Shown here one piece after another: positions 13,352 to 19,834 of a stretch of DNA of 37,482 nucleotides. Every line of letters starts with the position of its first letter. The first letter of the stretch is position 1. Below the pieces are notes generated by a model. It was not told the DNA's origin and searched no databases. It was given only the letters and a program-made list of their open reading frames with translations. Location of the stretch: positions 14,087-51,568 of the IMG/VR virus record IMGVR_UViG_3300030061_000094. The stretch is one strand, 5' to 3'. Source of the stretch: a virus. Position numbers and translations under genes: made by a program.

Positions 13352-13527
13352 ACGGTACAAATAAAAAGTTTAGCGTTACATTTCTATTGGAGGTAGATGA
13401 AGCGTGTAACGTACTATCGACTGTACAAGATGCACATGAGGAAGATGTTCGTGATCTGATACACAACACGTTTCACGACATAGATGATGTGAAGATAGAT
13501 AACTTAAATATTAAGGAGAGAACATGA
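13348..13527 (+). CDS. Small acidic hypothetical protein (59 aa), GTG start
   Basis: GTG 13348 overlaps the DUF3310 stop (GTGA) behind AAAGGAG, and the stop overlaps the reductase start (ATGA). The product has a beta segment (KKFSVTFLLEVDEA) followed by an acidic helix (DAHEEDVRDLI) and a further strand. The alternating pattern resembles a small alpha/beta fold. Because it is coupled to both neighbours, it should be made together with the reductase. No family recognised. Confidence 0.6.
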   Translation: MNGTNKKFSVTFLLEVDEACNVLSTVQDAHEEDVRDLIHNTFHDIDDVKIDNLNIKERT

Positions 13528-15473
13528 TTAACGCAAGCGGCATGGAAGCGTTTGAATATCATAACAACGTGGACAATGGTGAAGAATTGCCTACAGACTA
13601 CCAGACTTTTATACATCAGTCTAGGTATTCCAAGTGGATGCCAGAAGAAAAGAAAAGAGAGAACTGGAGTGAAACAGTACAACGCTACATAAGCAATGTG
13701 GTTGACGGTAAAGTATCCCCAGCAGAACAGCTAATGATAGAGGATGCTATACTAAAGCTAGAGGTAATGCCATCCATGAGAGCCATGATGACTGCAGGGC
13801 CAGCAGCAGACAGAGATAATACATGCATATACAACTGTAGTTACTTACCCGTAGATGACCCTAAGTCCTTTGATGAGGCTATGTTCATCCTTCTCTGTGG
13901 TACTGGTGTCGGGTTCAGTGTCGAGAGGCAATACATCAACAAGCTTCCTGAAATCCCTGTTCTCTATCATTCCGATACCACTATCATTGTTAAGGACAGT
14001 AAGGAGGGGTGGGCTAAGGCGTTTAGACAAGTGTTGGCACTCCTGTGGGCTGGTGAAATCCCTAAGTGGGACATGTCTCTTGTACGTCCAGCAGGTGCTA
14101 GGCTAAAGACATTTGGCGGTAGGGCTAGTGGCCCAGCGCCTTTGGTTGATCTATTTAGATTTACTACACAGACATTTAAAAATGCTGAAGGGCGTAAGCT
14201 TAGTGCTCTAGAGTGCCACGATATTATGTGCTTTGTAGGACAGATAGTTGTGTCTGGTGGTGTAAGACGCAGTGCTATGATCTCTTTGTCTAACCTCAGT
14301 GATGATCGTATGCGTCACGCTAAGTCAGGCCAGTGGTGGGAGACAGCAGGACATCGTGCTCTAGCTAATAACTCTGTGTGCTACACGGAGAAGCCAGATA
14401 TGGAATCATTCTTACGTGAGTGGACATCTCTGGTAGAAAGTAAGTCAGGAGAAAGAGGGATATTTAATCGTGAAGCATCTAAGGAACAAGCTGCAAAAAA
14501 CGGTAGGCGTGACAGTGAGTGGGAGTTTGGTACTAACCCATGCAGTGAAATCATACTTAGGCCATATCAGTTCTGTAATCTTACTGAGGTTGTGGTTAGG
14601 GCTACGGACTCTATTGACGATCTTGAAAGGAAAGTCAGAGTTGCAACTATACTTGGGACAATTCAATCAACCTACACAAAGTTTCCATATCTGCGAAAGG
14701 TGTGGCAGCGAAATACAGAAGAAGAGCGTCTGTTGGGTGTGTCACTCACAGGGATAATGGATAACCCATTAATGACTACAAAGAACAAAGGTCTAGAAAA
14801 AACATTGGAGTACTTAAAAGATGTCGCTGTTTCTACTAATACTGAACTTGCTAGCAATCTCAATATACCCACGGCTACTGCAATTAGCTGCGTTAAGCCA
14901 TCGGGAACAATATCCCAGTTGGTTGACAGTGCGTCTGGTATTCACCCTCGCCACAGTTCATTTTATATCCGTACTGTACGTGCTGATACCAACGACCCTC
15001 TAACTAAGTTCATGGCTGATCAAGGTATACCTAACGAGCCGTGTGTAATGAAGCCTGATAGCACAGTAGTGTTCAGCTTCCCCATCAAGTCACCAGACAA
15101 AGCAGTCCTGAGAGATGATCTAACAGCCATAGAGCAGCTAGAAACTTGGCTCATATATCAGCGACACTGGTGTGAGCACAAGCCATCAGTGACGATTACA
15201 GTGCGTGACGATGAGTGGCTTGAGGTAGGTGCATTTGTGTACAAACACTTTGATGAGATGAGCGGTATATCTTTCTTACCTCACTCAGATCATACGTACC
15301 AGCAAGCACCCTATCAAGAAGTAGGCAGGTCAGACTACAATATGTTAGCATCAATTATGCCAACTAGTATTGATTGGTCTAGACTATCTGACTATGAAGA
15401 AGACGATAACACAGCATCTATGCAAACACTAGCGTGTAGTGGCGATAGCTGTGAAATAGTAGACTTAACATAA
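13524..15473 (+). CDS. Adenosylcobalamin-dependent (class II) ribonucleotide reductase
   Basis: The 649-residue enzyme matches the monomeric class II ribonucleoside-triphosphate reductase of the Lactobacillus leichmannii type. Residues correspond as follows: NPCSE with radical Cys C340 and E342, C351 eleven residues on, and C105 as partner Cys (equivalents of C408, E410, C419 and C119). The C-terminal redox pair is C638/C643 (CSGDSC), equivalent to C731/C736. It reduces ribonucleotides to deoxyribonucleotides with a B12-derived radical, so the host must make or import cobalamin. ATGA overlap with the preceding gene. With ThyX it forms the dNTP supply of the phage. Confidence 0.94.
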   Translation: MINASGMEAFEYHNNVDNGEELPTDYQTFIHQSRYSKWMPEEKKRENWSETVQRYISNVVDGKVSPAEQLMIEDAILKLEVMPSMRAMMTAGPAADRDNTCIYNCSYLPVDDPKSFDEAMFILLCGTGVGFSVERQYINKLPEIPVLYHSDTTIIVKDSKEGWAKAFRQVLALLWAGEIPKWDMSLVRPAGARLKTFGGRASGPAPLVDLFRFTTQTFKNAEGRKLSALECHDIMCFVGQIVVSGGVRRSAMISLSNLSDDRMRHAKSGQWWETAGHRALANNSVCYTEKPDMESFLREWTSLVESKSGERGIFNREASKEQAAKNGRRDSEWEFGTNPCSEIILRPYQFCNLTEVVVRATDSIDDLERKVRVATILGTIQSTYTKFPYLRKVWQRNTEEERLLGVSLTGIMDNPLMTTKNKGLEKTLEYLKDVAVSTNTELASNLNIPTATAISCVKPSGTISQLVDSASGIHPRHSSFYIRTVRADTNDPLTKFMADQGIPNEPCVMKPDSTVVFSFPIKSPDKAVLRDDLTAIEQLETWLIYQRHWCEHKPSVTITVRDDEWLEVGAFVYKHFDEMSGISFLPHSDHTYQQAPYQEVGRSDYNMLASIMPTSIDWSRLSDYEEDDNTASMQTLACSGDSCEIVDLT

Positions 15474-15485
15474 AGGAGAAATAAG

Positions 15486-15626
15486 ATGGTTGAGTTTTTT
15501 GTAGTATCTATAATCGCCGTTGGCGTAGTAACAGAGGCAGTCTTTCCTGCCATTAGTAGTGGCATTGATATGGCTACACCCTATGTTAATCAAGGCATAG
15601 ATGCAGTAAAAGGTATCGTTAAATGA
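15486..15626 (+). CDS. Small hydrophobic protein (46 aa)
   Basis: ATG 15486 follows AAAGGAG after the reductase stop. Residues 4-22 (FFVVSIIAVGVVTEAVFPA) form a membrane span, followed by a soft, Gly- and Ser-containing tail. Small membrane proteins of this type accompany the late part of phage early operons. A pinholin-like or host-membrane role is conceivable but not supported further. The stop overlaps the next start (ATGA). Confidence 0.55.
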   Translation: MVEFFVVSIIAVGVVTEAVFPAISSGIDMATPYVNQGIDAVKGIVK

Positions 15627-15811
15627 AGTGGATACTAGTCCTTATCTTTTTTAATGATGGACTACACTACGCACAAACACAGCCTTACTTATATGAGAAC
15701 TACGATATATGTCAGGTTGCAGCAGATGAGGTAAAAGAAGTGTACGTAAAAAATATGCCACACAAAGATGCAGAAGTTATGGCATTCTGTGCAGCACTAC
15801 CCCGGCGATAA
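15623..15811 (+). CDS. Small exported protein (62 aa)
   Basis: The N-terminus (KWILVLIFFNDGLHYAQTQP) looks like a short signal peptide or membrane anchor. The rest contains two Cys (ICQVAAD and AFCAAL) spaced about 30 residues apart in two helices. Two helices with one Cys each after a signal sequence are seen in many short phage and bacterial periplasmic proteins. It overlaps both neighbours by one to four bases. Function unknown. Confidence 0.6.
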   Translation: MKWILVLIFFNDGLHYAQTQPYLYENYDICQVAADEVKEVYVKNMPHKDAEVMAFCAALPRR

Positions 15812-16014
15812 TGACCATAGAAAGTGAAGCAAAAGAGCACATGGAAAGAAAGCAAAGGCTTTTTTATGAGGGGCTATTGAGAAAGCTAGAGCCTATTAAG
15901 CAGCACATAAATGAACACTTGCCTAACAGCAAGAACAAAGAACGGGCTTTAGAAAGAGTAGATGATGTAGTTATGATAGCTAAATATACTGCAGAATTAC
16001 ATGGATTAAAGTAA
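15811..16014 (+). CDS. Acb2/Tad1-hairpin-like small protein (putative anti-defence sponge)
   Basis: The 67-residue product is two helices. Its C-terminal part, HLPNSKNKERALERVDD then VVMIAKYTAELHGLK, fits the pattern I remember for Acb2/Tad1 hairpin proteins: LP-x-S, a few charged residues, a repeated Ala-Leu, a Leu/Val-Glu/Asp-Glu/Asp turn and an Met-x-Ala-x-x helix. Members of that family bind cyclic nucleotides and blunt CBASS or Thoeris immunity. The match is from memory and covers about 35 residues, so the assignment is tentative. It is the last gene of the + strand unit, overlapping the previous stop by one base, and ends 2 bp from the convergent gene. Confidence 0.5.
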   Translation: MTIESEAKEHMERKQRLFYEGLLRKLEPIKQHINEHLPNSKNKERALERVDDVVMIAKYTAELHGLK

Positions 16015-16016
16015 GA

Positions 16017-16190
16017 CTAATCTAGTTTAGCACTAGGTGGACACTGTTGGCTTTCATCCCACAAGACTATGTGGTAAGGCCAGTAGTGATACCTAGTGCT
16101 AATCTTTTTTGGGCATCTGTATTCACAGACTGTGTACATCGTAGCTATTGGAGCCATGCCAAAGAATATACCAGTTAGAGCACATATCAC
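16017..16190 (-). CDS. Small membrane protein with cysteines (57 aa), GTG start
   Basis: This frame is the last of the leftward unit. GTG 16190 overlaps the TGA of the 1215-residue virion gene (GTGA), and the frame stops at TAG 16017. The N-terminus (ICALTGIFFGMAPIATMY) is hydrophobic. The polar remainder has cysteines in CEYRC and QQCPPS and an aromatic stretch (RYHYWPYHIVLWDE). A shorter start at ATG 16157 exists. The coding strand is antisense to the long hairpin 16027-16110, so the frame might be fortuitous, but overlap-coupling to the gene before it argues for translation. Confidence 0.5.
   Translation of the reverse strand: MICALTGIFFGMAPIATMYTVCEYRCPKKISTRYHYWPYHIVLWDESQQCPPSAKLD
16027..16110 (+). 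terminator. Long three-part hairpin with T-run at the convergent junction
   Basis: A perfect 12-bp inverted repeat (16027-16038 with 16091-16102) closes a structure that continues inward with 13 more pairs (16042-16054 with 16076-16088, three of them G-U) and a 5-bp tip (16059-16063 with 16070-16074). The total is about 30 pairs in 76 nt. TCTTTTTT follows at 16103-16110. The G-U pairs and the T-run both favour + strand RNA, so it should end the early transcript. It lies within the coding part of the - strand gene 16017-16190. Confidence 0.6.
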
Positions 16191-19100
16191 AAGCCAGTTT
16201 TGATTTTGAGGTTAAGATGATTTATAATAGATTCATATGTCTGCAACTCTCTATAGTTAAAATCTTTTAGCTCTGCATCTACGCCTCTTTCTTTCATCAT
16301 ACGTAAGGCTTTCTTTTGTTGTTCTTTTGTTCCCTTATTAGATGCATCATATCTTTTTTGTTCTAAAAAACCTTCACTTGTAGCTATTTTAAAATTATCT
16401 CTTACGTGTTTTCTAGCTCTCTTTAATTCTTCTTTTACCCTACCTCTCTTGTGTGCTAAATCGCCCTCTCTAAAGTTTTTACTCTTTAGCAATCGTGTCA
16501 TTCTTCTTTCTAATACAGGGGCTAATGTCTCATTAAATATTCTATCGTACATAGGTATTTGTGATCTTTGATCTGCTTTCCATGTTTGTAGTTCTGATAG
16601 AGTATAGGCTTTTTCTGTAGCAGTCTTGCCTCTCTTAATATTCAAACCTAGTATACGAGCTAGTGGGTTAGCGTCATAAATATCACCTTCCCTTGTAGCT
16701 ACACGCAAGTTCTCGCCTGTCAGTGCCTCAGACTCTCCTATCAAAACTTCTAATATATTGTCAAAGTATTTAGATGCAGACTGCGTAAACTTATTTACTC
16801 CCTCTGCCTGTCTCACATCTTTAGCTATATCGTTACCAGCAAGATACCCTACAGACCTGTTTACTGCATCAAGTGGACGTGTAGCACCTGCAGCTATATT
16901 GCCTAAAGACTTATACAAAGCATCTAATGTTTTACCTCTGTCGCTACCGTCACCAGTAAAATAATCAAACACATTAAATAGATCATTACCAAACTGTGCA
17001 TCTCTAGCTACCTGCCCTATGGCTAACTGATTTAATACTTCTTCTCGTAGCTCTGGTGGTACGGACTCTCCTTTTCTACGTAAGTTAGCGGCTCTACCTA
17101 TTGCTAAGAACAAAGAAAACGGAAACACATTTCTTACATCTACGATAGTCCCACTCATTTCTATTTCATTAACAGCCAAACCTTTTTTCTGTCTCTCATC
17201 ATCCATTTGCATTGCCATTACTAGCGCAGTAGTTCCTACCATAGAACGTGCCATAGCTTCATTAGCTTTTATGTCTTTGCCACTTGCCTTATATATCCTT
17301 GATGCTGCAGGTAACAAGCTAGCTGGCCCCCATTGATATGCAGTAGCCACAACATTATTCATAAATCTACCAAAGGGTATAACAGTACCAAGCAAAGGTG
17401 TGTTAGATGCTTGCTCTACAAACTTAGCTGCAAAACCTAGCATCTGATCATCCGTGGTGTAGTCTTTAGAGAACACTGATCGTAACGTAGTATCTACTGC
17501 ACCACCTATTACATCATCATCTATCTTAGCCATATCACCTGACTCTAACACACTAGCTAAAGTTATATTTGGGTTGTCCTTACCGTGCTTTAATCTAATA
17601 TATTTATCTAGCTCAGTCATAAACATTTGTGACTTAGTAAATACATCCTGCACACGTACTCCTGTTATCATCATGGCGGCATCAGCAAATATTTCAGTCT
17701 TCTCTAGTAATGGACTATCTATATCCATGTTATATCTTTTGGCTGTTCTTTCTATGCCCCCACCTATAGTTTCAAATAACAAACCTTTTACCTGCTTGTT
17801 GTTATCTATTGTTGTCATCAAGTCCATAAAACTTTCATACGTAGACATAGGATCAAGAAAGTTTTTCATCTTTTGTGCTTGTAAATCTTTATACACACGA
17901 GCCTGTCTAAACAATTCTTTACTAAGATTCTTGTCACCTTTAGTTGCAGATGCTACACCAGCTACACCTAACATACCAGTGCTAAAGAGATCAGCTACAC
18001 CTTGCCCACCATAAAACTGTGCAAAGCCAGCTACGTTAGCTGCAGTTGTAGCTGGAGATGAAACTAAAAGACGCTTCCATATGTTTTGCATATACGCTCC
18101 GTACTGTGCTTTTTTTCTTTTCTTACCAAACTCTTCTGCTAACTTATCCTGTACCTCTTTAGAGTTTATAGTTTCAACTAATAACTCATTGCCAGATACA
18201 ACACCTCCATCTACAGCCCTACGAACACTAGCCATAACACTCAGTGTACTACCTGCACCACTAACTGTAGCAGCTATAACATCTCCTAGTTCCACAGGTA
18301 AGCTGTGCAACGTGCCTAGTTCTATGTTAGTGTGTTTTCTAAATAACTGTGATATATCTTTTAAATCATCAGGGTCCATGTAGTGCAATAAGTTTGTCAT
18401 GATATCTGATACTTTTGTAGTCTTAGAAAATTTAATACCGTTGTCTTTAAATATCTTGGCTAACCCACCTACTTCTACTGGTCCTTTTATACCTAAAGCC
18501 TCTTTGCCATCAGGTGTGTAGCCTAACATAATTTTACTTAACAAACTTTCTGGCATTATTTGATTACCGTCTGAACCTTCAAAGGTTGCTTTACCAGTTT
18601 GTACTTTTGTGTTCCAATCTCGTATATCTTTCTTCATTTGATCTGCAGCTTGTTTAATTGATTTTTGCTTTAAAATAGGTGCAGCTACTGCCTCTCTAGC
18701 TAATTTGTTTACTAGGGTCTGTTGCTTTTTTATTTGTGCCTTTGGTGCTTTAGCTTTTTTAAGTTTACGTAATGCTTCTTTCTCTGCTTTAAATCTTTTT
18801 AGTGGAAACTCCTCTGCTCTGCTTGCAGCCTTTGCATTATCCATAGCCTCAGACAAACCAGACATACCATCAAACTTACCGAATGTGTAATGCAACCCAC
18901 CCCCTATACCACCCAACGCTAACGACATGGCAGTTTGTGCAGCACTAAACTTGTCCTGTGCTCCTATGTCATGGTATATATCTTGTGTGGCTACATCCTG
19001 TACACCAGACAAAAGAGCATCAATTGCTGTAGTTTGTATGACAGCCTTTTTAGCAGCCTTACCTTTTAGCTCTCCTGTCTCTTCTCTTATAGCTCTTTGT

Positions 19101-19834
19101 GCGGCCTGTAGCCTAACTTTAGCTCTAGCTTTCTTTGCTGCAGCGTTAGATGCTCTCTTCATAGATGCCTTAGTGTAGCTACTACCTGCTAACTTAGCAG
19201 TCATGGCATCTGCAGCCTCTTCTCCTGCCTTTTTAGCTGCCTCTTTAGTAGCTCCACTAGCAGACGCTCTCCTAGCTGCAGCAGCTACAGAGGCTTGTAT
19301 AGCTTTCTTACTAGCCTCACCTACGCCCAGCGCACTTGCTTTACCCAAGCCGCCTGTAGCTAGACCTATATAGTTTGTAGGGTCACTTGCTATAGATAAT
19401 ATATAATCTTTTACACCGTCCACTGCACCAAACAAACCATCATTGACAAACACGTTACCTAAACTATCGTACAACTCATATGCTTCTTTAGCTACATTCT
19501 TAGTTTTATCGTCTGCTTTACTAATAAATCTAGCCTCTCCTGCAGTAGCAACTATGTTAGTGTTAAACCTACGCATACTGTCAACAAAGTCTTCGACTAC
19601 AGTTTCTTTGTCGGCATCCATGTAGTCAGCGCCCTTCTTGCTAATCATGTATTCACGTATCTTGTTTAACCTGTCTCTTCTGTACAGGTCATCCTTCTTT
19701 AACTTCTCTCCTTTACGAGTGTCAGATTCAAACATATCGTTGAACTCAGTGTCAGCCGTAGACATAGCTACAGAAGTACTAGGTTCTACTTTTCCCTTCT
19801 TCCCATATAACTTATCAAATTCTTCTAAGGTCAT
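16187..19834 (-). CDS. Large internal virion (ejection) protein
   Basis: The 1215-residue product sits at the end of the late operon, where T7-like phages encode the internal core proteins ejected into the cell. The N-terminal 100 residues are charged. An Ala- and Lys-rich helical region follows (about 160-260, many AAKKA-type stretches), then a long helical body with Gly-rich hydrophobic patches (GGIGGG near 310, VIAATVSGAGSTLS near 530). The C-terminus is basic and helical (RKHVRDNF, KKALRMMKERG). I see no enzymatic motif. The role is an inference from size, composition and position. It starts directly after the lysozyme gene stop. Confidence 0.65.
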   Translation of the reverse strand: MTLEEFDKLYGKKGKVEPSTSVAMSTADTEFNDMFESDTRKGEKLKKDDLYRRDRLNKIREYMISKKGADYMDADKETVVEDFVDSMRRFNTNIVATAGEARFISKADDKTKNVAKEAYELYDSLGNVFVNDGLFGAVDGVKDYILSIASDPTNYIGLATGGLGKASALGVGEASKKAIQASVAAAARRASASGATKEAAKKAGEEAADAMTAKLAGSSYTKASMKRASNAAAKKARAKVRLQAAQRAIREETGELKGKAAKKAVIQTTAIDALLSGVQDVATQDIYHDIGAQDKFSAAQTAMSLALGGIGGGLHYTFGKFDGMSGLSEAMDNAKAASRAEEFPLKRFKAEKEALRKLKKAKAPKAQIKKQQTLVNKLAREAVAAPILKQKSIKQAADQMKKDIRDWNTKVQTGKATFEGSDGNQIMPESLLSKIMLGYTPDGKEALGIKGPVEVGGLAKIFKDNGIKFSKTTKVSDIMTNLLHYMDPDDLKDISQLFRKHTNIELGTLHSLPVELGDVIAATVSGAGSTLSVMASVRRAVDGGVVSGNELLVETINSKEVQDKLAEEFGKKRKKAQYGAYMQNIWKRLLVSSPATTAANVAGFAQFYGGQGVADLFSTGMLGVAGVASATKGDKNLSKELFRQARVYKDLQAQKMKNFLDPMSTYESFMDLMTTIDNNKQVKGLLFETIGGGIERTAKRYNMDIDSPLLEKTEIFADAAMMITGVRVQDVFTKSQMFMTELDKYIRLKHGKDNPNITLASVLESGDMAKIDDDVIGGAVDTTLRSVFSKDYTTDDQMLGFAAKFVEQASNTPLLGTVIPFGRFMNNVVATAYQWGPASLLPAASRIYKASGKDIKANEAMARSMVGTTALVMAMQMDDERQKKGLAVNEIEMSGTIVDVRNVFPFSLFLAIGRAANLRRKGESVPPELREEVLNQLAIGQVARDAQFGNDLFNVFDYFTGDGSDRGKTLDALYKSLGNIAAGATRPLDAVNRSVGYLAGNDIAKDVRQAEGVNKFTQSASKYFDNILEVLIGESEALTGENLRVATREGDIYDANPLARILGLNIKRGKTATEKAYTLSELQTWKADQRSQIPMYDRIFNETLAPVLERRMTRLLKSKNFREGDLAHKRGRVKEELKRARKHVRDNFKIATSEGFLEQKRYDASNKGTKEQQKKALRMMKERGVDAELKDFNYRELQTYESIINHLNLKIKTGL

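Follow-up and report, generated by a model that had tools for sequence, protein, structure and literature searches.

A short N-terminal slot tag and a putative divergent Acb2/Tad1-type hairpin in the last early protein of an HMO-2011-type phage

The helical hairpin of Acb2 and Tad1 is a phage device that soaks up bacterial alarm nucleotides, and both T4 Acb2 and Tad1 build nucleotide-binding oligomers from it. In the window analysed here, a stretch of 37,482 nucleotides from a viral record of 51,568 bases, the last gene of the early operon (P0001) encodes a protein of 67 residues in which two parts can be distinguished: an N-terminal segment that follows the genomic slot at the end of the early operon, and a helical hairpin related, at a distance, to those of Acb2 and Tad1. 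The favoured reading, held with middling confidence, is that P0001 joins a slot tag to a divergent sponge-type hairpin and acts as a nucleotide-binding counter-defence protein with a rebuilt pocket and a ligand other than that of Acb2. On sequence comparison, the hairpin homology and the modularity of the N-terminus are the best-supported steps of this account; the oligomer, the ligand and the counter-defence role are what we infer from the superfamily and from the early expression position. The features on which the analysis is based are as follows.

15811..16014, + strand: P0001, a 67-residue gene composed of an N-terminal slot tag and an Acb2/Tad1-type helical hairpin
15811..15858, + strand: N-terminal tag, residues 1-16, predicted first part of helix 1; matches the N-terminus of the slot MazG
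15859..16011, + strand: hairpin module of residues 17-67, with helix 1 running to residue 36, a turn at 37-40 and helix 2 at 41-64
15623..15811, + strand: 62-residue ORF directly upstream of P0001, overlapping its start codon, with a hydrophobic start
16024..16105, no strand: long stem-loop in the gap where the early and late genes converge
13524..15473, + strand: ribonucleotide reductase gene, anchor of the slot survey, with up to 77-78% identity to CRP-phage reductases

The gene and its surroundings

P0001 starts with ATG at 15811, within an overlap with the stop codon of the preceding ORF (15623-15811), and ends with a stop codon at 16012-16014. It is the final plus-strand gene ahead of a convergent late gene (16187-19834, 1215 residues). 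The position at the end of the early operon, already assigned to it in the preliminary description, is also held in the Roseobacter phages CRP-2, CRP-603 and CRP-207, where a relative of P0001 again closes the early genes, ahead of late genes that are convergent; the hosts stated in the records of these phages are the Rhodobacteraceae strains FZCC0023, FZCC0012 and FZCC0040, respectively. Relatives were collected from four viral-contig scans and from isolate phages, giving 74 matching ORFs that reduce to 39 distinct ones, three of them incomplete, and a pattern search of genome contigs returned 51 stretches, none of which was confirmed. The dN/dS ratio lies between 0.07 and 0.26 in 14 of 20 pairs within the family, the other six being saturated. 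On this evidence P0001 is a genuine gene, kept by purifying selection, and not an ORF that arose by chance.

Most of the sequence details first described for this protein are present, namely the LP-x-S turn (L37-P38-N39-S40), the acidic pair (D51-D52), the Met-x-Ala element (M55-I56-A57) and the HGLK end (H64-G65-L66-K67). The repeated Ala-Leu that had been reported is in fact a single pair (A46-L47). The LP element is no feature of the family, as proline occupies position 38 in only 6 of the 39 distinct relatives, tyrosine or histidine being found there in 31 and glutamine in 2.

The 62-residue ORF upstream has a weak match to phrog_3766 (E 0.0044), and an ORF resembling it precedes a tagged 50-residue ORF at the same place in locus L161. 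The stem-loop downstream has a predicted energy of -42.6 kcal/mol (z -4.92), with none of 200 shuffles equally stable, and it is kept in six aligned close relatives of the window. A simple terminator scan did not list it, and a search of Rfam gave no match. At its position, relatives of the CRP-2, L024 and L061 types show a short GC stem and, after it, a pyrimidine-rich stretch. The stem-loop probably terminates transcription on one strand or on both.

The polymerase of the window matches a DnaJ-type insert at E 5.5e-6, below the family cut-off, and a tyrosine integrase is encoded in the viral record. Both fit the HMO-2011-type group as portrayed in PMC9038755, where phages of this type are said to be dominant in the ocean and widely spread there. 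Isolated relatives of HMO-2011-type phages grow on pelagic Rhodobacteraceae. Eight loci retrieved with the reductase as query (L170-L177) are phage-like contigs carrying this reductase type, and they lie in bins labelled Flavobacteriaceae, Neomarinimicrobiota, Verrucomicrobiales, Euryarchaeota and Dehalococcoidia. These contigs are probably misbinned, and the labels of the metagenome-assembled genomes are no reliable guide to hosts.

The hairpin and its distant homology to Acb2 and Tad1

Searched alone, P0001 gave no match to PF24729 (Acb2_Tad1_hairpin) in Pfam at E up to 10, its best matches there being Plasmid_RAQPRD (E 0.058) and AAA_assoc_C (E 0.091). It had no match in NCBIfam or PADLOC, and none below E 0.2 among PDB sequences. 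This shortage of significant matches favours a reading in which P0001 is an unrelated small helical hairpin whose likeness to Acb2 and Tad1 arose by convergence of amphipathic helices. Against that reading stands the match of P0001 to phrog_1454 at E 3.3e-6. T4 Vs.4/Acb2 reaches the same family at 7.1e-4, as do 8 of the 9 reference hairpins (best 5.1e-36) and, with E up to 0.01, 17 of 34 relatives.

Among the relatives, PF24729 scored 17.2 bits (E 0.0058) for CRP-207 and 15.3 bits (E 0.024) for CRP-603, against a cut-off of 27 bits; the CRP-2 protein had no match, and the PF24729 search of the CRP-2 record was likewise negative (0 of 1). With the N-terminal tag kept, Plasmid_RAQPRD was matched by 4 of 21 members (best 0.027) and PF24729 by 3 of 21 (best 0.0058). 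With the tag removed, 8 of the 25 members reached PF24729 with E up to 1 (best 0.001), and every other Pfam family was matched by at most one member.

The family was then compared with nine reference hairpins, consisting of six actinophage proteins, the RyR-hairpin protein of phiCB2047-B, T4 Vs.4 and a Rhizobium phage protein. All nine match PF24729 at E up to 0.1, and a profile built from them recovers T4 Vs.4, Acb2 homolog 43, Tad1 and p26/Acb2 chains from the PDB. In hhalign, the family profile aligned with the references at 94.8% (E 5.2e-8) and, in a second version, at 95.9% (E 5.9e-9, residues 20-60), while the hairpin part alone reached 96.4% (E 1.1e-9 and 1.3e-9); seven of the nine references had been found by searching outward from the P0001 family, so the comparison favours a match. 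The real score of family against references was 41.5, compared with 17.2 for the best of 300 column shuffles and 7.2 for a reversed alignment, and the hairpin part scored 47.0 against 17.0 for the best of 200 shuffles. Scores so far above the shuffled controls argue against convergence, as do relatives in which the MWA signature of the references is present, although column shuffles lose the periodicity of helices and these controls therefore do not fully rule against it.

When the reference profile was run over 3006 distinct ORFs, the proteins of CRP-207 (1.3e-6), CRP-603 (6.8e-5) and CRP-2 (4.9e-4) came directly below the references. The sequence of P0001 itself reached only E 0.24, and four relatives fell at E 1 or worse, amid ORFs outside the family. 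One unrelated-looking ORF, L047:611-835 (E 0.0049), was placed among the family. This ORF adjoins the hairpin protein (gp9) of Arthrobacter phage Jasmine and has weak matches to hairpin profiles (E 0.0049 and 0.013); the two are perhaps a tandem pair.

Profiles of the P0001 family found no sponge in the PDB (A6 gave one match, E 0.38; A9 gave six, best E 0.59). Vs.4 and Acb2 homolog 43 are recovered once the references are mixed into the profile, and this result was given no weight because the references drive it.

Taken as sequence evidence, these comparisons support a real but distant homology between the hairpin of P0001 and those of Acb2 and Tad1. The earlier suggestion of an Acb2/Tad1-type hairpin thus stands with regard to ancestry, by way of the family profile and phrog_1454, and is not supported with regard to P0001 being Acb2 or Tad1 proper. 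The profile search proposed at that stage had a divided outcome, in that P0001 alone does not match PF24729 but the profile of its family matches references of that type. A lack of any profile similarity, named beforehand as speaking against the suggestion, was not observed.

The predicted structure agrees with the two-helix protein originally described. An AlphaFold2 model of the single chain, computed from 34 sequences, is a hairpin of two long antiparallel helices (residues 3-36 and 41-64; mean pLDDT 94.0, pTM 0.71). It is all-helical, with no strand, and the N-terminal beta-sheet domain of Tad1 is absent from it. A Foldseek search of the PDB with the model gave nothing better than E 1, and CbTad1 came at rank 13 with E 9; in VIA-align CbTad1 had a Z score of 4.2 compared with values of up to 7.3 for unrelated bundles. 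The matches from both programs are mixed helical bundles, and no Acb2 chain was listed. The missing structure match is in line with a convergent hairpin. Structure searches cannot discriminate among helical hairpins in this case, and with the profile evidence in view we regard convergence as improbable.

A canonical Acb2-type sponge, whose known pockets would take up dinucleotides of the 3'3'-cGAMP type and trinucleotides of the cA3 type, would account for the superfamily and for the early expression position. It can be confronted with the residues that contact the ligand in T4 Acb2. According to PMC12657218, the binding of cyclic dinucleotides is disrupted by the substitution Y8A, and F82 is stacked on the ligand; T68M is reported, in PMC12657230, to lower affinity. 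The alignment gives no counterpart of Y8 in the P0001 family, whose members have no N-terminal aromatic segment of that kind. T68 aligns to family position 48, which is Glu in 20, Lys in 15 and Asp in 3 of the 38 relatives with a residue there (one has a gap), compared with Thr in 8 of the 9 references. Position 62, opposite F82, is Phe in no family member; this weighs little, as F82 is not conserved in the actinophage references either, so that only Y8 and T68 carry weight. By alignment, the known contact residues of T4 Acb2 are lost in the P0001 family, which makes the canonical sponge quite improbable. Their loss also speaks for a difference from T4 Acb2 in any ligand or pocket.

In the favoured reading of a divergent sponge, residues 17-67 would descend from the same hairpin as T4 Acb2 and Tad1, and the hairpin would self-assemble. 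The assembly may bind a small nucleotide signal from the host immune system and hold it away from its effector. The pocket would be rebuilt relative to Acb2, pointing to a different ligand. Residues 1-16 would be a helical tag common to the proteins that occupy the slot. The fixed residues E4, E6 and A7 were at first read as pocket residues, and this was dropped because they belong to that tag.

The N-terminal tag and the genomic slot

Residues 1-16 match the N-terminus of the slot MazG in hhalign at 95.4% (E 1.8e-8, 15 columns), with an alignment score of 35.4 against 15.9 for the best of 200 column shuffles; the same residues reach only 0.24% against the reference hairpins, and residues 17-67 only 0.13% against the slot MazG. 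No MazG family appeared in the Pfam scan of P0001. The tag has an [IL]-E-x-E-A-like motif, seen in the window (15811-15858) and in L084, L085, L086, L088, L089, L161 and L176. This pairing of a matching N-terminus with a dissimilar remainder favours a different reading, in which the tag is the working part and the hairpin only oligomerises or presents it; the protein would then dock on a partner from phage or host and bind no nucleotide. A common 5' end could, however, be a mere recombination junction.

The slot is occupied by different proteins in different phages. The last early gene encodes a MazG protein in HMO-2011 (gp21), CRP-345 (gp39) and CRP-1 (gp30), all with a tag-like N-terminus, and in CRP-13 it encodes a small protein with a tag-like N-terminal segment. 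The latter (gp34, L084:3175-3426) has a basic KKPRGRPPKKK stretch ahead of the tag, which we take to recall an AT-hook. The tag is absent from the last early gene of CRP-235 and from L175. The collection of MazG proteins comprised 86 distinct ORFs, eight of which were dropped for short flanks. A strict form of the motif was found in 9 of 74 distinct MazG ORFs, and a form widened after inspection of near-variants in 16 of 17 distinct slot MazGs as opposed to 0 of 61 MazGs elsewhere; the Fisher value for this contrast overstates the evidence, the sequences being related by descent. The lone slot MazG failing the widened motif, that of L171, has Asp in place of Glu, a variant also seen across L171-L174. 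MazG copies upstream of the reductase mostly have another N-terminus, MI-x-x-x-D-I/L-x-A-F-like. Among 80 loci with both the reductase and the convergent gene, the slot held a hairpin in 60, a tagged MazG in 12, a MazG without the motif in 4 and something else in 4; most of these loci were fetched by hairpin or MazG queries, so the classes do not reflect frequencies in nature.

As a module of its own, the tag goes with the slot and not with the domain that follows it. In a model of the MazG protein it is predicted, with modest confidence, to form a separate helix (residues 2-15, block pLDDT 68 and 63). Its residues E6 and A7 are kept in all 38 relatives with residues there, and weak matches to the tag profile head very short slot ORFs in L161 (50 residues) and L176 (42 residues). 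Chance-looking weak matches to the same profile lie inside endonuclease-like ORFs of L160 (E 0.089) and L112 (E 1.4).

That the tag follows the slot and not the enzyme, heads such short proteins and is so strictly kept is consistent with the tag being the working part, and the loss of the Acb2 contact residues from the hairpin points the same way. On the other side, the hairpin has fixed residues of its own (F18 and L37 in 39 of 39, G65 in 37 of 37), and MazG is an enzyme family, so that this cargo at least is more than a platform. In addition, the counts depend on a motif widened after inspection, and the short proteins match the tag profile weakly (E 0.014 to 2.5). A purely presenting hairpin is a possible reading, though not a likely one.

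A broader proposal builds on the tethered form of the divergent sponge. In HMO-2011-type phages the early operon might close with a cassette in which one tag is combined with interchangeable cargo (MazG, the hairpin or other small domains). The tag would dock every cargo on one shared partner, of phage or host origin, such as a signal-producing enzyme or the replication site, and nucleotide signals would be captured or destroyed where they are made. P0001 would then be a tethered sponge for a new ligand. As a whole, this proposal is speculative and we consider it unlikely.

Should P0001 be a sponge, the range of the Acb2/Tad1 hairpin would take in HMO-2011-type phages, and its presence would point to nucleotide-signalling defence in the hosts of these phages. 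Even without a sponge role, a short N-terminal module tied to a slot and not to a domain is an unusual pattern.

Comparison with known systems

Literature searches in PMC found no paper pairing HMO-2011 with Acb2 among the matches listed, none joining CBASS with defense systems of marine Rhodobacteraceae, and none joining MazG, HMO-2011 and N-terminal. The comparison below is made with individual proteins.

Acb2 (T4 Vs.4; p26 of a Pseudomonas phage) resembles P0001 in being a small early phage protein with two long antiparallel helices, and the pattern of the turn and the second helix is aligned across residues 20-60 of P0001. It differs in its short N-terminal segment bearing the binding tyrosine, in place of which P0001 has the slot tag. 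The equivalents of T68 and F82 are not kept in the P0001 family, and the PF24729 scores of the relatives, where bits are shown, are below the cut-off (17.2 and 15.3 against 27).

Pfam places the C-terminal hairpin of Tad1 under the same family name, and Tad1 chains are within reach of the reference profile. An N-terminal antiparallel beta-sheet is ascribed to Tad1 in PMC12043709, in contrast to the all-helical model of the 67-residue P0001.

Acb2 homolog 43 (PDB 9ptq, an entry with six chains) is similarly short, with 76 residues, and the reference profile finds it at E 5.1e-10. Unlike the P0001 family, it retains the Thr of the TKLEEA pattern. A literature search found no paper on this homolog.

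The slot MazG proteins (HMO-2011 gp21, CRP-345 gp39, CRP-1 gp30) share with P0001 the slot and the N-terminal tag. Beyond the tag, these proteins are MazG pyrophosphohydrolases and do not resemble the hairpin.

SUFG_00048 of the Sulfitobacter phage phiCB2047-B is, like P0001, a hairpin protein of a marine phage, in this case a roseophage. It matches PF24729 at 5.4e-8, above the cut-off, phrog_1454 at 3.1e-8 and the profile of the P0001 family at E 9.2e-7 (A2). In contrast to P0001, its hairpin is fused behind a RyR domain and the Thr is kept. In phiCB2047-B, L018:3575-4141 encodes a RyR domain and a hairpin, both above the Pfam cut-off, and the RyR-hairpin protein of this phage is possibly a two-part nucleotide binder.
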